A stretch of 64,000 bases of DNA from Sulfurospirillaceae bacterium. GTDB taxonomy: Bacteria; Campylobacterota; Campylobacteria; Campylobacterales; Sulfurospirillaceae. Within the stretch, counting starts at the first letter, position 1. Each line of letters opens with the position of its first letter. The position numbers were made by a program, and so were the translations under genes. The notes under the pieces were generated by a model, which was given only the letters and a program-made list of their open reading frames with translations, was not told the origin of the DNA and did no database searches. Shown here in pieces: positions 52,957 to 64,000 of this stretch. The stretch is from positions 1 to 64,000 of the forward strand of contig JAQUGO010000002.1 in the NCBI GenBank assembly GCA_028684065.1, read 5' to 3'.

Positions 52957-53019
52957 TCTTTCAATTTCCTAAGCACCTTCACCATCGCCAAAGTATCGAG
53001 TTCACAGTACTTCAACAAC
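52957..53019 (-). pseudogene. Fragment of the DUF2779 gene 3' end
   Basis: Bases 52980-53019 are identical to 53731-53770 inside the 3' end of the DUF2779 gene, with weaker similarity on the left. The fragment encodes part of the KYCELDTLAMVKVLG segment. It is a decayed copy in the same orientation as the intact gene, with a 212-aa gene in between. Confidence 0.85.
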
Positions 53020-53024
53020 ATATT

Positions 53025-53663
53025 TTATGCTTGTAAATTTTCTACATGCAAAGATATATTTTCATGTTTTTTCAACTCTTTTCTACCTATTTTGGCAGAA
53101 ATAATATGGCGTAAATTATAAAAAAGAAAAAAACTAGCAAACAAACAAATAGCACTCAACACAAAAGTAGGTATAGACGTAACAATAGAAAAATTGAAAA
53201 ATCCATAAAGAAACGAAGCTATTCCAGAGAGATAGAAGAATACAGTAAAAATGGCGTTTGCATAAAAAATAATAGCATCAACTTTTGAAATTTTTACTTT
53301 TAAAATTCCATCTTCATAATCAAAAAATTGTAGTCCTCTTTGAAAATGCCTAAATCCAACTTCTCCTTTTGCATCTTTATACGCTTTTATAATCACTTCT
53401 CTAAATTCTTTTTCTACATTGAGTCCTAGTGTTGTTGAAAGATACTCTTTTGTAAGTTGATCCTCTAAAAGCTCTCTATCTAAACCTTTTATATTTTCAT
53501 GTTTTAAAGCTTCTTCTATTTTTATAATTTTTACTTTTTTTCTGCTATCTATAAACTCAATGATATTTTTATAATTTATAATCAACGCTATAAGTATTAT
53601 CAACAGCACAATTAAAACATTCCCTTTTTCAATACTGTCTATAAGTTTATTTATTAATTCCAT
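53025..53663 (-). CDS. Hypothetical multi-pass membrane protein
   Basis: 212 aa. TM helix near the N-terminus (VLIVLLIILIALIINY), a cytoplasmic helical section rich in Lys and Glu (about 40-130), then two TM helices (AIIFYANAIFTVFFYLSG; FVLSAICLFASFFLFYN). It sits between a 3' fragment of the DUF2779 gene and the intact DUF2779 gene, so it is likely an inserted cargo gene. AT-rich. Function unknown. Confidence 0.65.
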   Translation of the reverse strand: MELINKLIDSIEKGNVLIVLLIILIALIINYKNIIEFIDSRKKVKIIKIEEALKHENIKGLDRELLEDQLTKEYLSTTLGLNVEKEFREVIIKAYKDAKGEVGFRHFQRGLQFFDYEDGILKVKISKVDAIIFYANAIFTVFFYLSGIASFLYGFFNFSIVTSIPTFVLSAICLFASFFLFYNLRHIISAKIGRKELKKHENISLHVENLQA

Positions 53664-53694
53664 TCTTACCCCTTATCTTCAAAGAATTCAAATC

Positions 53695-55179
53695 TCATTC
53701 ACACACTTTTCTTAATTTCCCCAATACTTTCACCATCGCCAAAGTATCGAGTTCACAGTACTTCAACAACTGTTCTCGCACTTTCATTTGTTCTTCCAAA
53801 CTCTTACCATATAAAGAGGCAAAGGCGTTCATAGCATCACCGCCATTTTGGATGCCATCAAGTTTTTTATAGGCGAGTTCCATCTCAGGTACAAGCGCAG
53901 GAAGGACGTATTTGATGGAGTAACTACCTTGCATGACTGGGGTGACGTAGTGTCCTTTTTGGAAAGGAAGCATCAAATCTTTGATGGTGTCGTGTAGGTG
54001 CATAAGCCTTACATGTAAGTCCGGAAACAGCTGCGCAAGTGAGGCGATGACGCCTTTTTCGAAGCTCATATTGTATGCCAAAATGTTTACATGTAAAGGT
54101 ATATCTTCGACCAATTTCTCCGCCAAAGTGCGTCTTGGGTCGCTTCCTGTCTCAGCTAAAAATGCTTTATGCTCCAATGTGCCATCACGGTGTTCTACAT
54201 GTAAGGAGTATTGAAACGGTATTTGTTTGTAAGGGCTGACACCGTTCCACTCTGGCACGGCTTGTTGAAAGGTCTCAAAGTCAAGATGATAGATCGGATA
54301 CGTGAGGGTTTCTAAAAACTCAGCGATTGCGGCATGGTCGATGAACGTGTGTTGCTTTTTCCAGTTCTCGACCTTTTGCCACTGCAAAGGTGTCATCGCA
54401 AAGTCTTCGGGGATGTCTTCGATAGCCACGATATTTTTGGCATAAAGCTCTTGTTGTTTTTTACTGCCAAGGTTGAAGATATTGAAGATGCTGTACTCTG
54501 GGATATTTCGCTGAACTTTCCAACAATACGCCTTTGCATCGCACTCGTACGGGTCATTGCACTGTTTGCCAATGTCGATGTTTGGCTCATGAAATTTATC
54601 GTCTAAATACGCCTCAAACGCTTCAAGTTTTGCAGGGATAGAGCCTTGCAAATCTCGCACCTCATCTGTGACATCGACCACCACAAAAAGTTTTTCAAGT
54701 TCCAACGCTTCTTCTCGCACATAACTAGAGTTAATATGCACCACATGACACGCCCCAACCCTAAAACCAAGGGCTTCTAAAACATACAGCTGAATGGAAA
54801 TATCATGCAGATAGATAGGCTTCACATCGGTGGAACTCTTCACTTCATACAGCTCTAAGCCAAGAGGCGTTTGGCGCAAGATGTCCACCATCACCACGAT
54901 GCCCTCGTAAATAAACGTCGCCTCGTAGATGTTTTCCACACCCTCATCAAAATACGTTTTTGTAAGCCTCGCCATGCTTTTAAAATCGTGTGCATCAAAA
55001 GGTATCTCACGCCCATTTGGAAACAACTCACACGCCAAATCCCCCACAACATTACCCGTTTCAAACCGTGCTTTAGCACTGGCATCGGGCGGGCTCAATT
55101 CCTCTGGCTTGTACTTTTTCAGCCAAAGGGACTTTGGGCATTGAATGGCTCGGGTGTAGAGGGATTTTGAGAGGGTCAT
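53695..55179 (-). CDS. DUF2779 protein (Cas4-like PD-(D/E)XK plus C-terminal exonuclease-like domain)
   Basis: 494 aa. The N-terminal half has the Cas4-like start LSKSLYTRAIQCPKSLWLKKY, YEVKSSTDVK with the acidic/Lys core, and a cysteine-containing CNDPYECDAKAYC patch that may hold an Fe-S or Zn site. The C-terminal half (about 290-490) is DUF2779, with YHLDFETFQQAVP (DEDD-like first acidic pair) and YCELDTLAMV. This suggests an RNase T/DnaQ-like nuclease fold. It abuts RhuM (1 bp gap). Decayed partial copies of this gene lie on both sides of the region. Confidence 0.8.
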   Translation of the reverse strand: MTLSKSLYTRAIQCPKSLWLKKYKPEELSPPDASAKARFETGNVVGDLACELFPNGREIPFDAHDFKSMARLTKTYFDEGVENIYEATFIYEGIVVMVDILRQTPLGLELYEVKSSTDVKPIYLHDISIQLYVLEALGFRVGACHVVHINSSYVREEALELEKLFVVVDVTDEVRDLQGSIPAKLEAFEAYLDDKFHEPNIDIGKQCNDPYECDAKAYCWKVQRNIPEYSIFNIFNLGSKKQQELYAKNIVAIEDIPEDFAMTPLQWQKVENWKKQHTFIDHAAIAEFLETLTYPIYHLDFETFQQAVPEWNGVSPYKQIPFQYSLHVEHRDGTLEHKAFLAETGSDPRRTLAEKLVEDIPLHVNILAYNMSFEKGVIASLAQLFPDLHVRLMHLHDTIKDLMLPFQKGHYVTPVMQGSYSIKYVLPALVPEMELAYKKLDGIQNGGDAMNAFASLYGKSLEEQMKVREQLLKYCELDTLAMVKVLGKLRKVCE

Positions 55180-55180
55180 G

Positions 55181-56185
55181 TTATTTATTTTCCACCTCTA
55201 GCAATAGTTTGTCAAAATCACTCCTAAAAAGTCTATCTTGAACCACACGGTATTTTTCAAATTCGCTCAAAGCTTTTTCATCGGCTATTTTTTTAGTGAT
55301 TTGCCCTGCATCGTGCAAAATCTCTCTATCATCAAACTCCAAAAAGGCATCGAGTCTTTTAGCCCAATCGTCCATGCTCATAGGAATATTTCGTTTGGCT
55401 CTACTTTCTGCAAGGTCTAAAAAAGCATTGACAATTCGCCCAAGAGAGTCAAGTTCTTCTTTTGAGAGATAGTTTTTTGCTACAGTGACATCAGATTTCA
55501 GTACCTTTCCACTAGGTGCATTTTCCCAAGACGTTAGCCCCATATATTCTTTCTCACTATCTGCTCTATTGTGGATGAGTTCCGCCGCCGTATGTCCGTG
55601 AATGGCAAAATGAAGTTTGTTCTGCACCTTTGCAAAAAACGTTTTGGTTGTCTCGTCGTCTTTGTTGTAGTCCACACTTGTGGCATAAATATCGGTAATC
55701 TTTTGGTAAAACATCCGCTCACTCAGTCGTATCTCTCGTATCTCTTCTAAGAGCTTATCAAAATAGTTTTGTCCTAAAAACGAACCGTTTTCAAGTCGCT
55801 TTTTATCAAGCACAAACCCTTTAATGGCAAACTCTTTCAGTACGCTTGTCGCCCACTGTCTAAACTGTGTCGCTTTTTTGGAGTTTACTCTATATCCTAC
55901 GGAGATGATGGCATCGAGGTTATAGTATTTTGTGTTATAGGTTTTACCATCATTGGCAGTATGTCGGAATTCCCGACATACTGATTTTTCAACTAACTCT
56001 TCACTTTCAAATATATTTTTAAGATGCTCAATTATAGTTGTTCGACCTTTATCAAAAAGCTGGGCTATCATCGTTTGAGTAAGCCAAACGGACTCTTCAA
56101 AAACTTTTACCTCGATGCTGTTTTCTCCACTTTGTGAGGTAAATATCAAAAATTCAGCAGTCGAGTTTCTTATGAGTTTATCCAT
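55181..56185 (-). CDS. rhuM: RhuM family protein
   Basis: 334 aa, full length. The N-terminal half has the virulence-RhuM pattern SVWLTQTMIAQLFDKGRTTI followed by VCREFRH and YYNLDAIISVGYRVNS. The C-terminal half contains the Fic-like helical region with IHGHTAAELIHNRAD. The RhuM family is widespread on genomic islands and prophages; its molecular function is unclear. It is directly upstream of the DUF2779 gene. Confidence 0.88.
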   Translation of the reverse strand: MDKLIRNSTAEFLIFTSQSGENSIEVKVFEESVWLTQTMIAQLFDKGRTTIIEHLKNIFESEELVEKSVCREFRHTANDGKTYNTKYYNLDAIISVGYRVNSKKATQFRQWATSVLKEFAIKGFVLDKKRLENGSFLGQNYFDKLLEEIREIRLSERMFYQKITDIYATSVDYNKDDETTKTFFAKVQNKLHFAIHGHTAAELIHNRADSEKEYMGLTSWENAPSGKVLKSDVTVAKNYLSKEELDSLGRIVNAFLDLAESRAKRNIPMSMDDWAKRLDAFLEFDDREILHDAGQITKKIADEKALSEFEKYRVVQDRLFRSDFDKLLLEVENK

Positions 56186-56221
56186 CTATCTTAGCCTTTT
56201 ATTCATGTGTAATATTCTTTT

Positions 56222-56308
56222 TAGCAACTATTTTACTCTTCATCGCTCAATGGCTTTGAAAAAATTTCAATATGAAATGCCTTACAACGCAACAATCCAC
56301 ACGCTAAA
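56222..56308 (-). repeat. Duplicated upstream region, copy A (before RhuM)
   Basis: Matches 57200-57286 with frequent substitutions. It contains the inverted repeat TTGAAAAAATTTCAA at 56256. It lies just upstream of the RhuM start, so it may carry the promoter or operator. The rest of 56186-56385 holds two TTACATGTAA motifs and no gene. Confidence 0.8.
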
Positions 56309-56385
56309 GCCCATCGTTTTTTTTACATGTAAGAATCAAAAAATAGCCTGTCACATTTTTCTTCTTACATGTAAACACACTTTAC

Positions 56386-57186
56386 TCATTTTATCAGCCT
56401 ACTAACCACGTTATCGGTTAATATCTGCATCTGTTGGATAGCAATTGTATTGAGCTTTTGAAGCCTCTCTTTTTGCCCTAATCCTTCTTGGATAAATAGC
56501 GCATTAAGTGTTTCTAGATTTGCCAAACAGACAAGCTGGCTGACATCGGCATCGTCGCGGATATTGCCTTTTCTCTCAGGATTTGCATCACGCCACATTT
56601 TTGCACTCATGCCAAAAAGTGCTACATTTAAGATGTCAGCTTCACTGGCATAGACATGGCTAATTTGTTGAGGCGTAAGAGTTTTTGGTATGAGATTTAT
56701 CTGAATTGCATCGGTGTGAATGCGGTAATTAATCTTGGTGAGATTCCTTCTGATATCCCAACCCAACTGTTTTTGCTCATCATCTTTGAGTCTTTGAAAC
56801 TCTTTAATGAGATAGAGTTTAAACTTGACCGAAATCCACGATGCAAACTCAAAGGCGATGTCTTTATGAGCATATGTGCCACCGTATCTGCCTGATTTTG
56901 AGACGATACCAATGGCATTGGTAGCTTCAATCCACTTTTGAGGACGCAGGGTAAAGCTGTTGAGTCCGGCTTCTTTTCTAAACCGGTCGAATTCGACCGG
57001 TTTAAAATTTGGATTGTAAAGATGCTCCCAAATACCTAGAAATTCTATGGTATTTCGGTTGCGTAGCCAATTACGAATAATTTCATTGGCTTCGCTGTCT
57101 TCTTTGTACTTTGCGATGTCTGTCAGGGAGATATAATCATCTTTATTGATTGCTATGCTTTGATCAAAAACAGTTATATTTGCCAT
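56386..57186 (-). CDS. KilA-N domain protein
   Basis: 266 aa. The N-terminal KilA-N DNA-binding domain (about 10-120) shows YISLTDIAKYK, IRNWLRNRNTIEFLGIWE and GRYGGTYAHKDIAFEFASWIS. The C-terminal half is helical with a second conserved part (SEADILNVALFG). Such proteins occur in phages and mobile islands. Its upstream region duplicates that of RhuM. Confidence 0.87.
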   Translation of the reverse strand: MANITVFDQSIAINKDDYISLTDIAKYKEDSEANEIIRNWLRNRNTIEFLGIWEHLYNPNFKPVEFDRFRKEAGLNSFTLRPQKWIEATNAIGIVSKSGRYGGTYAHKDIAFEFASWISVKFKLYLIKEFQRLKDDEQKQLGWDIRRNLTKINYRIHTDAIQINLIPKTLTPQQISHVYASEADILNVALFGMSAKMWRDANPERKGNIRDDADVSQLVCLANLETLNALFIQEGLGQKERLQKLNTIAIQQMQILTDNVVSRLIK

Positions 57187-57199
57187 GTTTTACCTTTTT

Positions 57200-57286
57200 T
57201 AACAACTACTTTACTATTAATTGTTCAATTTCTTTGAAAAAATTTCAATTTGAAATGCTTTACAATGCAACAATCCACACGCTAAA
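57200..57286 (-). repeat. Duplicated upstream region, copy B (before KilA-N)
   Basis: Same element as 56222-56308. It has TTGAAAAAATTTCAA at 57234, followed by a further overlapping palindrome ATTTCAATTTGAAAT. Such a ladder of TTGAAA/TTTCAA sites could bind a repressor. It runs straight into the DUF2779 remnant. Confidence 0.8.
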
Positions 57287-57391
57287 TTCCCCACAACATT
57301 ACCCGTCTCAAACCGTGTTTTGGCACTGGCATCTGGTGGAATTAAAACCTCTGGTGTACTTTTTCAGCCAAAGGGATTTTGAGAGGGTCAT
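57283..57391 (-). pseudogene. Fragment of the DUF2779 gene 5' end
   Basis: Similar to 55035-55179, the first ~50 codons of the intact gene, with the start codon at 57391 still visible. A deletion of about 31 bp lies between GGGA microhomologies, and many substitutions are present. With the 3' fragment at 52957 it makes a split, decayed copy flanking the island. Confidence 0.8.
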
Positions 57392-57401
57392 GTTATGTTA
57401 T

Positions 57402-58253
57402 TCATTCGATTTTATATCCTGGAGGAATTTTAAAGACTTTAGACGTAATTTTTTGTTGAGCTTGAATTAATTCATTAACGGGTAAATGCACTACTTGAGT
57501 TGCAAATAAATCAGCGCCTTGATTTCTAAAAATCATTCTTTTGTAACTATCACTATATGGAGAAAACACCAATGAGTCCCCGAACTTTCCGGTATTGCAA
57601 ATTAGGACATTACACATCACTAATCTAGCAATTCCTTCAGCTAATGAAAAAAAAGAATTCGTATCTTGATTGTATGCAATAATAATCATATGTTGAACTT
57701 TTCCTTTGTACGCAACATATCGTTCTATATCATAAAAATCTGCACAAATTGCAAAACCTATTTTCCCATACTCACCAGAATCAATCAAATACATATTTTC
57801 GTCAGAATCAAACGTAAAGTCTTTAGTTGAATATTCATTAATTGTTTTTTTTTCAGCATTTGCAGGATATTTTTTACCTAATAATCGAATAGTAGTTGAA
57901 GATGATTTCATATCTTCATTCCATTTATTTGGGACAATTAAAATTGCATTATTCTTAACTTTTTTTTCTTTGTTTACATCCCAGTCTAGTCCAGCTATTA
58001 CAACAGCATTCATTTCCTGAGCAAGTTTTCTAAGTTCATATTGATACCCATTTGGAACTGTAAGTTCGGGCATTACAATAATATCTGGCTTTGTATGATG
58101 ATTATATAGTTTATGAAATCCTTTTTTCATTTCTTGCCAAATATAATTTTCTGCTTCTTCTTTCATTCGCAAAGTTATATTTTCCCTAGGCCCCCAAGCA
58201 ATGTCATTATCAAGATTTGTTTGAATAAATCCTATTTTCAAATACTCAGTCAT
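57402..58253 (-). CDS. Nitrilase-superfamily hydrolase of the reverse-transcriptase operon
   Basis: 283 aa carbon-nitrogen hydrolase. With numbering from the GTG at 58262, the triad is E66 (MPELTVP), K130 or K131 (LLGKKYP) and C173 (GFAICADFYD), so it should be catalytic. I prefer ATG at 58253, with AAGGTGAAAGTA upstream; it overlaps the RT stop in ATGACTGA. In DRT type 1 proteins a nitrilase domain is fused to the C-terminus of the RT. Here it is a separate but coupled gene. Its substrate is unknown. Confidence 0.85.
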   Translation of the reverse strand: MTEYLKIGFIQTNLDNDIAWGPRENITLRMKEEAENYIWQEMKKGFHKLYNHHTKPDIIVMPELTVPNGYQYELRKLAQEMNAVVIAGLDWDVNKEKKVKNNAILIVPNKWNEDMKSSSTTIRLLGKKYPANAEKKTINEYSTKDFTFDSDENMYLIDSGEYGKIGFAICADFYDIERYVAYKGKVQHMIIIAYNQDTNSFFSLAEGIARLVMCNVLICNTGKFGDSLVFSPYSDSYKRMIFRNQGADLFATQVVHLPVNELIQAQQKITSKVFKIPPGYKIE

Positions 58254-61200
58254 TACTTTCACCTTGTTGAAAAATATCTTTTTTAATTTTATTCAAGCTA
58301 ATAGGCACAAGATAACGGGCATTATCTTTAAATACATATTTGTTTTCTTCTACCAATCGTATTGCATTATTAATAGCATCACGTAATTCATACACAGTAT
58401 AAAAAATCAATTCATCTTTTTCATCATTATCAAAATCTGAGTCATACTCAAAAGGGTAGGACTTAAATTTACGTGTTTCTCTTTTTCTTTTAGAAAGGCT
58501 ACTTTCAATTATTTCAGCTGTATACGAAGATATAGGATATTTTTCCAGTTTAGAAAGGAAGTACCCTAGATTAAATAATTGCGTACTTGGTAGAAACATT
58601 GCATTTGGCAACCATCTTGTTTGAGTCACTAATTGAAACATTAAAATTCCAATTGCAAATATTTTACGTTCTTCTTGATGTGTAGATTCAATAAAATCAG
58701 AAAAATATCTATTGTCAATTATTTCTTCACAATCTATCATATTAATTTCATCATCCTTTTGCAAGACTATATTGTAAGGGAATGAGGTAAAAATTTTATC
58801 AGGACTTTTTACATCTTCGATATTTACATTACAATATCTATCAAGTATTTTTTTGATATATCCTAGAATTTTTAATTCTTTATCCTGTTGAAAATCCTTA
58901 TTTTTTAAGAAATCTAAAATAAATGTTTGTGATTCTTTAGCTTTCATATATTTTACATATTTTAATGCATCTATATTTACGATAACATCTTTAGAAAAAT
59001 TCACACTTCTATTCTCAAATACTTTATACCACCATGAAAAAGCAAGATATGAATTATTTTTTTGCTGTAAAAGTTTTTTAATTCCATTATCATTTATTGA
59101 ATCTGGGTATAAAGCAGCAACAGCAGTGAATGCGAAGTTATTTTCAATATTTGCACTTTCTAAATAAAGCTTAGCTATAGATAAATGATTATTTTCATTT
59201 TGACTTGAAAATTTTTCAATTAAACTCCAAATAATCTTATCTGCATCTAAATTTTTATTTTCTAGATATTCAATAGGTGAATTATTCCAATCTATAAGTT
59301 CAAAATTATTTATAAGGGTATCACTATTTTCAAGCTTTAGTTTGTTGACTATATTGTCATTTAATTCATTTAAGAGAAAAAGTATCGTGCCAATTGTAGT
59401 TTTTAAATATTCTTGTGATTGCTTAAAATAATATGTCTGATCGCTTCCTGGAAGTATCTTTTTTAAAAAATTTGGACTCAAGATTTGCCTAAAATAACTA
59501 CATTTTCGATTTATCTCTCTATAAGAAAGTTGTGTATTTTGCAGTAATTTATAAACACGTATTAAAGAATGTATTAATAAATCATAAAAAAAAGTTTTGA
59601 TATAAATATTAGATACTTCATTAATAATCTTGGATTCTTTCATTTCATTTACTAAATCCCAAATTGTTATAAGTTCATTTTTATAATGGGTATCTTTGAT
59701 TTCTATTTCTGAAAAGCCATTTTTTTCACAAAACAGCAGAGCATTTTTCCACAATCTTAATTTTTCAGGATGCTTATGGATAGCATAAATCAGAAGTTTA
59801 AATATTCGTCTTCTATCTTCTTGAATATTCTGTTCTAAGTCATTCTTTGTTTGTACCAAATCTTTATTTAACTGTTCCACTTTTTTATCATTTTTATCTT
59901 TATTTAACTGTTCAAATAATTTTCTTTTTTTGAGATATATTTCAGAAAAATCATGATTTTTTCTGGATGTCAATAATGCCAATCTTGAAGCAGCATACGA
60001 AACTCTAGTGTCTTTTCTAATTTCATCATCAGGAAAGTCAGTAATTAGTAAATGCTCTAAATCACCCAAAACTCGTTTTCCTTCAGCTTCATCCAATAAA
60101 TCAAATGGAGTATGGTTTATCATAGACATTTTTTCAAGTGTCAAATTCATTAGCGTAGATGGGTAGTGAGGATCTAACCTCATTTCGTGAATTGCTTTTT
60201 CTCTCAATTCCTCTAACTTATCATTAGTTTGTCCACTCTTCGGATTGAATTTTTTGTCTAAATATTCTGCATATTCATCTGGTTTTGTTTTCTTCCAATT
60301 TATTTCAATACATGATCGGCCTGATGAATCCTTAAAATGCGTTTCAAGTAATGATTTATATTGTTCAACCCAATTAACGAGATTGTCCACATTAGTAGAT
60401 AAAAAAGTATGATCATCCACAAATCTAAAATGTGCAATTTCTTTTTTTTCTTCAATGAGTATATTAGCCTCAATATCAACTTTAAGCATAGCGATATTTG
60501 AAAGAAATCCAGCACTAAATAATCCTGTTGGGATACCATTGTAAATTAAATCTTTTGCACCCAAACCAATGATCTCAAAATATTTATCATCTAAATGTTC
60601 TAGCCCATGATATGAAATTTTAAATTTCAATAATAATGATATAAGATTTTTCAACTTGTGGGAATCTGTATAATCTTCTTTTAGTTTAACTCCAAAATTT
60701 TCAAAATTTTGTTCAATTATTTCAACTTTCGCACTGGGATAAAACTTTGTTAAATCAATACTACACCAATATAAATCAGATTGGTTTTTTTTCCAATAGT
60801 TTGGTTCTTTATATCTTACTTTATGTGTTTTATTTAGATGATTATTTTCTTCAATATTATCTTTCTCTTCTTTATTTAAAGTGCCTTTGTTGCTGGTCAT
60901 AAGTTTTGCTGTGAGATAAATATCTTTCCTAAATCTTGGCCAGCTTTGCTGAAAACTTCTATATGCATTTGTTATTGTGTTACGATAAGGTCCATATCCC
61001 CATACTATTTTGCCATTTTTCTTTTTTTCTTTAGGGAACATACTAATATATAATCTATTTCCATAGCTCCAAAATGGCATTTGTTTATCATAATATCTAC
61101 CAATAATATTCATGACAGCTAACCAAACCACTTGATCTCTCACTGCAACCCAAAACATTTGACGACTCTGTGCTTCGCCCTTTTCATCTTGTCCTTTTGG

Positions 61201-61413
61201 AAAAAAAATAGGTTGTAAAGGAGTTAGCGTATAATTTTCTTGTTGAATTTCTTGTACTATTTTTTTTAACTCGTTTTCATAATTTGCTGAGAAAGAAGCA
61301 AGCTCTAATTGATCATACCAATGTTCATGTTTTTGATAAAAAGATTTTGCTTTTTCCCATGCCCAGTGAAGATTTTCTAATTGAACAATTTCCGCAATAA
61401 TAGATTGGTTCAT
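58246..61413 (-). CDS. UG-type (DRT1-like) reverse transcriptase
   Basis: 1055 aa. The RT domain fills about 60-420. Residues of the blocks include D220 in SIDLTKFYPS (motif A), GIPTGLFSAG 293-302 (motif B) and FVDD at 331-334 in place of YADD. All three catalytic Asp are present. The remaining ~600 residues are helical, like the helical repeat of UG enzymes. No group II intron maturase (X) or HNH domain is seen. It overlaps the primase gene (ATGA) and the nitrilase gene. AT content is higher than in the flanks, a sign of transfer. DRT1 (UG1) is the closest known arrangement; assignment to a UG group needs a tree. Confidence 0.85.
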   Translation of the reverse strand: MNQSIIAEIVQLENLHWAWEKAKSFYQKHEHWYDQLELASFSANYENELKKIVQEIQQENYTLTPLQPIFFPKGQDEKGEAQSRQMFWVAVRDQVVWLAVMNIIGRYYDKQMPFWSYGNRLYISMFPKEKKKNGKIVWGYGPYRNTITNAYRSFQQSWPRFRKDIYLTAKLMTSNKGTLNKEEKDNIEENNHLNKTHKVRYKEPNYWKKNQSDLYWCSIDLTKFYPSAKVEIIEQNFENFGVKLKEDYTDSHKLKNLISLLLKFKISYHGLEHLDDKYFEIIGLGAKDLIYNGIPTGLFSAGFLSNIAMLKVDIEANILIEEKKEIAHFRFVDDHTFLSTNVDNLVNWVEQYKSLLETHFKDSSGRSCIEINWKKTKPDEYAEYLDKKFNPKSGQTNDKLEELREKAIHEMRLDPHYPSTLMNLTLEKMSMINHTPFDLLDEAEGKRVLGDLEHLLITDFPDDEIRKDTRVSYAASRLALLTSRKNHDFSEIYLKKRKLFEQLNKDKNDKKVEQLNKDLVQTKNDLEQNIQEDRRRIFKLLIYAIHKHPEKLRLWKNALLFCEKNGFSEIEIKDTHYKNELITIWDLVNEMKESKIINEVSNIYIKTFFYDLLIHSLIRVYKLLQNTQLSYREINRKCSYFRQILSPNFLKKILPGSDQTYYFKQSQEYLKTTIGTILFLLNELNDNIVNKLKLENSDTLINNFELIDWNNSPIEYLENKNLDADKIIWSLIEKFSSQNENNHLSIAKLYLESANIENNFAFTAVAALYPDSINDNGIKKLLQQKNNSYLAFSWWYKVFENRSVNFSKDVIVNIDALKYVKYMKAKESQTFILDFLKNKDFQQDKELKILGYIKKILDRYCNVNIEDVKSPDKIFTSFPYNIVLQKDDEINMIDCEEIIDNRYFSDFIESTHQEERKIFAIGILMFQLVTQTRWLPNAMFLPSTQLFNLGYFLSKLEKYPISSYTAEIIESSLSKRKRETRKFKSYPFEYDSDFDNDEKDELIFYTVYELRDAINNAIRLVEENKYVFKDNARYLVPISLNKIKKDIFQQGESND

Positions 61414-62417
61414 ATAATACGCCCTTTTATTACTTCATTTAAATCATTGTATTGCTTAGGTATTTGTATACGCTTAATTGTTTTTATTTGGCTGAAAAAC
61501 CTTTGAATACTTTGGAAAAATTTTTCTCCACCTGCATCATTGTCTGGTGCAATATAAATATCATAATTCTTCAATATTGACACATATGAACTTTTAAAAT
61601 TTGATGCACCCATTATCCCAATTACATTCCAACCAAATTCTTTTGCTGAGAGCGCATCAGTTAATCCTTCTGTAATAACTACTTTTTCACCTACTTTTAG
61701 ATCTTTTAAAATTTGTTCATTAAATATTGTTGATTCTATGGAAGATAAGTTCATCCAACGAATTTTAGGATGGTCATAAAATCTTCCTTGTAAATAGTTT
61801 ATTTTATTTTCATGATTATAAAAAGGAAAAACAATAACATCTTGCCACCATATGGGTCTACTTTTCTGGTCATTATTAATCCATAATCCACATTGCACTA
61901 ATCTATCAATCCCCCACCGTTTTTTTGCTTCATTAAAAAATTCATTTGTTAACAGAATATCTCTAATATTGAAATATCTAAGAGTATCTTCATTTATATT
62001 TCGTGCTTTAAAATAGTCAATCGCTTTTTTACTTAACGTTGTATTATTAATTATCCACTCATATATTTCTGCGTTAGGTTGATACTCATTAGTTTCAATT
62101 TTTTTTATATCTTGTTTGAATACTTTCTTTTTTATACATTGATTTGAAGAATCATGAATAAATCGATCCATTAGCCATTGGCAAGCTTCTTGAAAATCAA
62201 CTCCGCCATATTCCATAATTAAATTAATCGGACCTCCACCAATTCCACAACCAAAACATTTGAATTTATTTTTTGAATACTGAAAAGAAAGACTAGGTGT
62301 TTTTGTATCATGTCCAGCAAAGCACATCGCCTTTGTATTTTTATTTATCTCTATCCCTAAGATTTGCGCTACTTCTTTGATGGGAATATTATTTAATAAT
62401 TCCGTATCATATTTCAT
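61410..62417 (-). CDS. DnaG-type primase (CHC2 zinc finger plus TOPRIM)
   Basis: 335 aa. The CHC2-type zinc site is C32-x3-H36 with KTPSL, and C54-x2-C57 in KCFGCGIGG. The TOPRIM domain has E250 (VVITEGLTDALSA) and D292-x-D294 (APDNDAGGEKF), so the active residues are complete. It lacks the C-terminal helicase-binding domain of DnaG, as in phage and plasmid primases. It overlaps the membrane gene by 11 bp and the RT by 4 bp. A primer-making role for the RT is possible but inferred. Confidence 0.88.
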   Translation of the reverse strand: MKYDTELLNNIPIKEVAQILGIEINKNTKAMCFAGHDTKTPSLSFQYSKNKFKCFGCGIGGGPINLIMEYGGVDFQEACQWLMDRFIHDSSNQCIKKKVFKQDIKKIETNEYQPNAEIYEWIINNTTLSKKAIDYFKARNINEDTLRYFNIRDILLTNEFFNEAKKRWGIDRLVQCGLWINNDQKSRPIWWQDVIVFPFYNHENKINYLQGRFYDHPKIRWMNLSSIESTIFNEQILKDLKVGEKVVITEGLTDALSAKEFGWNVIGIMGASNFKSSYVSILKNYDIYIAPDNDAGGEKFFQSIQRFFSQIKTIKRIQIPKQYNDLNEVIKGRII

Positions 62418-63147
62418 TTTTAAGAACTTTTGTACAACATTTTTTAAGTTCAGATAATGAAGAACAAATAGCTCTCAATTGTTCTTCATTAGATATTTCT
62501 CCATTTATTCCTTGAATCAATTTTTCAATAGGAAAAATAATTAGTCTAAATTTTTCACTTTTATAATTTTCTTCGAATTCATAATAAGATTTACAAATCC
62601 TTTTTCCATTTTCATGACTTATCATCATTTCTGCAATTTGCCGTTGTTGCAAGGAATAGATAGGAGTCATAAATGCTGTAGACCTAAGATTCACATTCAC
62701 GGAATGAATGGCATTAAAAAAATCTTTTTCATCTTTTTTTTCGTTAAAAATTTCATAGTTAATTTCTTCTTTTAAAACTTGTATCCAACACAAATATTGT
62801 GCAAAATAATAAAGTGAACTTGGCATATAATAGTTATATTCTAGTTCATCCTCCAGAAGAGCTTTCTTACCATTTTTATTAATAAAATAATCCAATCTAC
62901 CTATCAATCCATTGACTGAACTTAAAACAGGATTTGTCCATTTTTTTAGTTCTTCAAATTTTCTATTATCTTTTTCATACAATTTTTTAATTTCGTTTTT
63001 TTCATTTTCTAATTCTATCTTTAACTCATTTTTATATTTTTCTAATGTCATTTTTGATGCTGTATCTAAAATCTTTTTACCAAGAAAAACTACTCCTGTC
63101 GTAATAACTGATATGCTAGAAAAATAAACAATTATTTCTTGAATCAT
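62407..63147 (-). CDS. Membrane-anchored coiled-coil protein of the RT operon
   Basis: 246 aa. One N-terminal TM helix (about 8-24, SISVITTGVVFLG), a long charged coiled coil (about 32-70, rich in Glu and Lys) and a helical C-terminal domain. RBS TAGGAGTAATTATA. It is the first gene of the four-gene operon, 21 bp after the SbcC-like gene. Known DRT1 loci also contain a small membrane protein beside the RT; whether this is its homologue is uncertain. Confidence 0.75.
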   Translation of the reverse strand: MIQEIIVYFSSISVITTGVVFLGKKILDTASKMTLEKYKNELKIELENEKNEIKKLYEKDNRKFEELKKWTNPVLSSVNGLIGRLDYFINKNGKKALLEDELEYNYYMPSSLYYFAQYLCWIQVLKEEINYEIFNEKKDEKDFFNAIHSVNVNLRSTAFMTPIYSLQQRQIAEMMISHENGKRICKSYYEFEENYKSEKFRLIIFPIEKLIQGINGEISNEEQLRAICSSLSELKKCCTKVLKNEI

Positions 63148-63168
63148 TATAATTACTCCTATTTAAAT

Positions 63169-64000
63169 TTAAAGTTCCACAACTCTCTCAAACATCTCTT
63201 TTATCTCCATTTCATGGCTTATCAAAAATATCTGTCTGTACTGTTCTTTTATGGTATGAAATGCTTCTAAGATTTCCATTCTTCGGTTTTCGTCTTGACT
63301 TCCAAAGACTTCGTCAAACGCTAAAAATCCCACGCTACTGGCACCGTTCAGTTCACTCAGTGTTTTAGAGATGGCGATACGAAGCACTAAGTTAGCAAGG
63401 TCTATCTCTCCGCCGCTGAAGCGTTCTATGGGGTAGCATTTGCCCTCGTCGTAGATGAAAAAGTCAAAGTCGTTGTTCACTTCGATGTATTGGTATTTGC
63501 CTTTGGTGATGGTGGCGTACATCTGCGAGGCGATTTGCGAGATGCGTGGGGCTATTTTTGAGTTGAGTTTGGTTTTAAACTCACTAAGGCTCAGTTTGAT
63601 TTTCTCATAGTCTTGCAAATCGTCTTTTTTACTCTGTACTTTTTTAAGTTGTATGTCGTTATTTTCCAGAGCGTTTTGCAAGGTTTTTATCTCGCCTTCA
63701 TTTTTGGCTATCTTTTCTTTTAGCTCTGAGATAACGCTGTATTGTTTCTCTTTTTGCTTTTGAAGTTCGTCGTATTCACTTTGTTTTGCGGTGTGTTTTG
63801 GCTCATCGTAGAGTGTTTTTTGCACTTCCAATTCTTTCTCTTTTGACTTTACATGTAAAGCTTCTGCACTTTTTACTGTAAGTGCCAAATCCTCTCTCAC
63901 GCCCTGCTCTCGTTTGAGTTCTGTTTCAAGACTTAGGACGGCTTCATACTTTGGTTTTAGCTCCAAAAAGCTTTTTTGTAGGCTTACATGTAAGGCTTCA
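63169..64000 (-). CDS. SbcC/SMC-like ATPase, C-terminal part (5' partial)
   Basis: The frame is open to the right edge, so the track start (TTG at 63966) is internal and the Walker A end lies outside the window. Visible are a coiled coil (about the first 120 residues), the ABC signature FSGGEIDLANL, Walker B FLAFDEVF and the H-loop LISHE. It belongs to the SbcC/Rad50 family of DNA-end nuclease ATPases. It is less AT-rich than the adjacent RT operon. Confidence 0.85.
   Translation of the reverse strand, partial: EALHVSLQKSFLELKPKYEAVLSLETELKREQGVREDLALTVKSAEALHVKSKEKELEVQKTLYDEPKHTAKQSEYDELQKQKEKQYSVISELKEKIAKNEGEIKTLQNALENNDIQLKKVQSKKDDLQDYEKIKLSLSEFKTKLNSKIAPRISQIASQMYATITKGKYQYIEVNNDFDFFIYDEGKCYPIERFSGGEIDLANLVLRIAISKTLSELNGASSVGFLAFDEVFGSQDENRRMEILEAFHTIKEQYRQIFLISHEMEIKEMFERVVEL

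Follow-up and report, generated by a model that had tools for sequence, protein, structure and literature searches.

A DnaG-type primase is inherited together with UG6 reverse transcriptases and their nitrilases

Genes for a DnaG/TOPRIM-type primase, a UG6 reverse transcriptase (RT) and a nitrilase form a co-inherited, overlapping core, in which the catalytic residues of all three enzymes are intact. We describe this core in a 64,000-nucleotide stretch of DNA from a Sulfurospirillaceae bacterium, referred to here as the window, and in related loci from many phyla. The characterised DRTs covered here begin DNA synthesis from a protein side chain or a non-coding RNA. In many phyla a putatively antiviral RT has become tied to a cellular-style primase, independently of the AEP primase of DRT7. 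This makes it possible to test whether a defence RT relies on RNA primers and whether what it makes controls a nitrilase. The parts of the system are not new. All four window genes match DRT entries in PADLOC-DB 2.0.0 (2023), with every gene of the operon matching its own model in the UG6 set (RT_UG6, RTasDnaG-like, RTasNitrilase, RTasTM), and an operon of UG6 RT and nitrilase is an already catalogued kind of DRT. A literature search, with the defining UG/Abi RT survey outside it, returned no functional study of UG6. The main addition of the present analysis is an adjacent exonuclease gene, a largely unlisted partner of UG6.

The window operon has the following features, all on the minus strand:

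57402..58262, minus strand: stand-alone nitrilase, 286 aa
58246..61413, minus strand: UG6 RT, 1055 aa, with a long alpha-helical region after the catalytic part
61410..61413, minus strand: ATGA, the 4-bp overlap of the primase stop with the RT start
61410..62417, minus strand: DnaG/TOPRIM-type primase, 335 aa, with CHC2 zinc finger, DNAG_N and TOPRIM
62407..62417, minus strand: overlap of the membrane-gene stop with the primase start, 11 nt, ATGAAATATGA
62407..63147, minus strand: membrane/coiled-coil protein of 246 aa, optional

Among the open reading frames of the window, those of the RT and then the nitrilase lie downstream of the primase in the same direction. As a preliminary description of this DNA had noted, the primase start lies inside the end of the membrane gene and its stop inside the RT start; the ATGA overlap suggests that primase and RT are translationally coupled. 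No RNA family was found by Rfam at window positions 53000-64000.

The same description had called the protein a DnaG-type TOPRIM primase, and this identification is borne out by domain profiles, invariant residues and predicted fold. The window primase contains a CHC2 zinc finger (PF01807, 3e-13), DNAG_N (PF08275, 2.5e-6) and Toprim_2 (PF13155, 6.8e-11), and matches the PADLOC model RTasDnaG-like at 2.7e-88. In 39 aligned primases the CHCC zinc site (C32, H36, C54, C57), Q210 and R212, and the TOPRIM residues E250, G251, D254, D292, D294 and D325 are all invariant. An AlphaFold model built from the 39 rows has a pLDDT of 91.7, and its top Foldseek matches are the zinc and RNA-polymerase domains of DnaG, the best being Aquifex DnaG (2au3, E 7.4e-16). 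Judged from its sequence, the protein is thus a DnaG-type primase with intact catalytic residues. It shares with cellular DnaG the zinc-binding and RNA-polymerase domains and the active-site acids, but it ends after TOPRIM: the UG6 primases are all 333-369 aa long, lack the C-terminal helicase-binding domain, and are encoded apart from the host dnaG, which in the window's genome lies on a different contig.

These features bear on whether the protein makes primers at all. It could instead be a sensor or effector, one that binds phage single-stranded DNA, poses as DnaG within the phage replisome or cuts nucleic acid, thereby switching the RT-nitrilase. For example, retron-Eco2 also has an RT with a TOPRIM domain, fused to it, which has been called an effector (PMC13275509), and a few UG6 loci dispense with the primase. 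The window protein, however, is not a lone TOPRIM but has the complete primase architecture, with zinc finger, DNAG_N, every polymerase acid invariant and the fold of the DnaG zinc and RNA-polymerase domains, and the nitrilase already supplies an effector. We therefore regard a sensor or effector role as improbable.

An RT joined to a primase is also known from DRT7/UG10, where AE_Prim_S is found in 61% of UG10 members (PMC8934634) and DRT7 has been characterised as a fusion of RT and primase-polymerase (PMC13213688). There, however, an AEP/PrimS domain lies in the RT chain, whereas the window has an unrelated TOPRIM primase in a separate gene, plus a nitrilase; a domain search found no AEP domain in the window primase or RT. 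The proposal that the pairing is an independent solution accordingly stands insofar as the primase is distinct from the PrimS of DRT7/UG10, but not as a claim of novelty, since its parts were already in the 2023 database. The window primase likewise matches (1.3e-25) a DnaG-like stretch close to the N-terminus of another PADLOC model, RT_UG29. That model describes one very long protein (2280 positions), and the general dnaG model gives the window primase a higher score.

The two downstream genes are similarly well preserved. The RT, which carries an RVT_1 domain, matches RT_UG6 at 4.3e-132, the next family being Drt1a at 2.5e-15. Its catalytic residues, D220 and D333-D334 (FRFVDDH), are invariant across all aligned sequences. 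The N-terminus is group II-like, and an AlphaFold model (pLDDT 83) matches group II RTs and DRTs in Foldseek, with a fold like that of template-primer RTs. In three loci (L009, L029, L036) the RT frame is split into two ORFs, through decay or sequencing error. The nitrilase matches RTasNitrilase at 3.1e-95, and Glu66, Lys130, Glu137 and Cys173 are invariant among its aligned relatives. It is closest to the effector domain of DRT1: a family profile matches the DRT1 nitrilase domain (9yfd) at 1.9e-28, in an alignment that reaches the DRT1 nitrilase C-terminus.

To place the window among its relatives, we scanned 85,462 genomes for RT motifs and obtained 48 loci. Two of them, L054 (in which RT and nitrilase are fused) and L056, are not UG6 and were excluded; with the window added, the census comprises 47. 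The scan alignments (A3/A4) contained real rows and synthetic diverged rows, the latter solely for steering to RT motifs and absent from every tree, profile and structure. Each match was confirmed by tblastn against the real window sequence. The scan depends on an RT-motif match, and UG6 members with altered motifs can escape it. Trees and interval counts omit L051, a near-copy of L018.

Of the 46 UG6 loci that could be judged for the primase, from many phyla, 43 have it immediately upstream of the RT (in L053 the contig ends); the nitrilase is directly downstream in all 46 loci judgeable for it (in L019 the contig ends too early). An overlap of the primase stop with the RT start occurs in 34 of the 36 loci measured, its length being 4 nt in 18 and 8 nt in 11. 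Because this overlap recurs across phyla and the catalytic residues are invariant, the arrangement seen in the window is not a matter of chance. Evolutionary distances are also strongly correlated (primase-RT, r=0.96; primase-nitrilase, 0.91; RT-nitrilase, 0.95), with a permutation maximum of about 0.2 (0.23 for primase-RT). Thus the coupling of the primase to the RT and their joint inheritance are upheld well beyond the window, and loci pairing RT and nitrilase in the absence of a primase are far from being the rule. In one metagenome-assembled example (L035), primase and RT form a single open frame of 1467 aa, whose junction contains a ribosome-binding-like AGGAGG, so internal starts are possible.

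The reverse comparison gave a concordant result. When a primase profile (E<=1e-45) was applied to 1,570 genomes (397 from Campylobacterota, 401 from the order of Sphingopyxis, 384 from the order of Proteiniphilum and 388 from the order of Flavobacterium), nine primases of the clade were found. All nine adjoin a UG6-type RT, although in one (L078) the RT match is fragmentary, and the possibility that such primases sit more often beside integrase or replication genes is not what these samples show. Phages often carry DnaG-like primases (phrog_47), and a phage or ICE primase could in principle have chanced to settle beside the RT. Yet such an RT was absent from the plasmid, phage-record and viral-contig searches made (viral contigs being scanned at first with peptide patterns of low quality), as was the primase from the plasmid search, and the frequency, overlaps, distance correlation and reverse matches given above leave an accidental neighbour with virtually no credibility; the census refutes it.

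By contrast, the idea that the primase is locked to the membrane gene applies to the window only. The membrane ORF matches RTasTM at 1.5e-29, but none of the 48 scanned loci contains a relative of it, and it is an optional, non-core part.

The primase itself is absent from three loci (L034, L048 and L049). In the RT tree these absences fall at two places within primase-bearing groups, indicating two losses, and the primase is therefore not strictly indispensable. All three genomes hold a host DnaG, accompanied at most by one unrelated extra primase; that of L048 has further primase-like matches away from the RT. The RTs of the primase-less loci differ at many conserved sites in the Flavobacterium pair and at hardly any in L034; since other long branches, including the window, differ likewise, no primase-RT interface can be read from these sites.

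What could a primase contribute to such a system? Its place as a core partner in almost all related loci makes it the likely initiator of the DNA made by the RT. Our best model, which seems to us quite plausible although short of probable, is that primase and RT form a complex, a mini-replisome trimmed by an exonuclease, that makes DNA controlling the nitrilase effector. The primase would synthesise a short RNA primer on a single-stranded nucleic acid template, either phage single-stranded DNA during replication or the first strand made by the RT itself, and the RT would extend this primer into DNA. Lacking the helicase-binding domain of cellular DnaG, the primase may be positioned by the RT rather than by DnaB. 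An exonuclease, dedicated where present or else the host's, would keep the DNA product short. The DNA-bearing RT would then gate the nitrilase, which would act as a toxic effector once phage infection upsets the balance, as in the fused RT-nitrilase DRT1. In DRT1 (UG1, PDB 9YFD), both RT and nitrilase are required for immunity, and the DNA made gates the system's own nitrilase (PMC13275509). DRT1 resembles the window system in having an RT, an alpha-helical repeat region and a nitrilase with the same catalytic residues. Unlike the window, where RT and nitrilase are separate genes, it is one fused protein with no primase, and priming is by its own Ser402 (PMC13275509). The broader proposal, that UG6 systems are self-contained mini-replisomes of a TOPRIM primase, an RT polymerase and often a dedicated 3'-5' exonuclease, whose RNA-primed DNA gates a separate nitrilase, is more speculative still. 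An RNA-primer start in place of a protein side chain, if true, would be a priming route unreported for any DRT in the literature searched.

The chief rival to this best model keeps the same parts in a different order. DRT1 and DRT5, the best-studied relatives, are protein-primed and template-free (PMC13275509), so a separate priming enzyme is not needed in principle. The UG6 RT could likewise be protein-primed and untemplated, with the primase acting second on the single-stranded DNA that the RT makes, to give a duplex or an RNA-DNA hybrid. Protein priming in class 3 relatives (PMC13275509) speaks for this order of events, and the loss of the primase from three loci would be easier if it acts second. 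Three hydroxyl residues of the RT (T425, S430 and T469) are invariant, of which T425 and S430 lie beyond the catalytic site and may serve in priming; the three are compatible with protein priming but do not decide it, and conservation of the priming Ser of DRT1 does not extend to other class 3 DRTs (PMC13275509). Such a two-polymerase scheme resembles DRT7 or DRT3, whose reports suggest duplex products; in DRT7, with its RT joined to a primase-polymerase, duplex-like DNA is made (PMC13213688). The product of a TOPRIM primase, however, is RNA and not DNA, as established for DnaG, and no duplex product is known for UG6. We consider second-strand priming rather unlikely, but the computed data do not separate it from the model in which the primase starts the RT's DNA.

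The trimming step of the RNA-primed model draws on the genes adjoining the core. In 19 loci (L051 not counted), a gene for a 3'-5' exonuclease immediately precedes the primase or follows the nitrilase, and several of these genes overlap the nitrilase or primase gene:

DnaQ-like DEDDh exonuclease: 13 loci (L011, L013-L015, L018, L022, L023, L025, L026, L029, L037, L044, L050)
ExoI/SbcB-like exonuclease: 4 loci (L027, L030, L032, L034)
PolB-exo2 exonuclease: L038
DUF2779, with DEDD-like motifs read by eye: L017

Among alphaproteobacterial loci, 17 of 21 have such a neighbour. Of the exonuclease families found here, only the ExoI/SbcB-like partner has a PADLOC RTas model. The DnaQ-like exonucleases match nothing there but a DEDDh model associated with Cas and some weak candidate families, and no RT-associated model, and the nucleases of L038 and L017 have no PADLOC match. 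In L018 and L051, which belong to two genera, there are 2 differences in about 12.7 kb; the near-identity continues for about 35 nt beyond the exonuclease stop codon and is lost after that. That it ends just past this gene indicates that the exonuclease travels with the system, and we read the pair, from sequence identity, as a recent horizontal transfer of the operon including the exonuclease. A partner of this kind is in line with DRT9, whose DNA is restrained by ExoI (PMC12483538), which suggests that the exonuclease beside the UG6 operon may play a similar role.

The defence role claimed for UG6 is a prediction from classification and neighbours. Neighbouring genes in L048, L049, L016, L045 and L008 include AbiE-like genes (by eye), SduA, a YhcG/DUF1016 nuclease, a NERD-helicase and a UvrD/GajB-like helicase, as would be expected of defence islands. 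In the window, KilA-N and RhuM-family genes (55181-57186, minus strand), which match the PADLOC candidate families PDC-S22 and PDC-S05, separate the nitrilase from a DUF2779 gene (53695-55179, minus strand). The latter, at most a candidate partner of the operon, is 2.2 kb beyond the nitrilase with two genes between; its protein has Cas4-like N-terminal and DEDD-like C-terminal motifs (by eye) and is related to the one encoded right beside the nitrilase in L017 (7e-84). Similar short stretches at about 56115-56405 and 57150-57470 (plus-strand frames), with the translations KFQYEMPYNATIHTL and KFQFEMLYNATIHTL, flank the KilA-N gene and are possibly a direct repeat.
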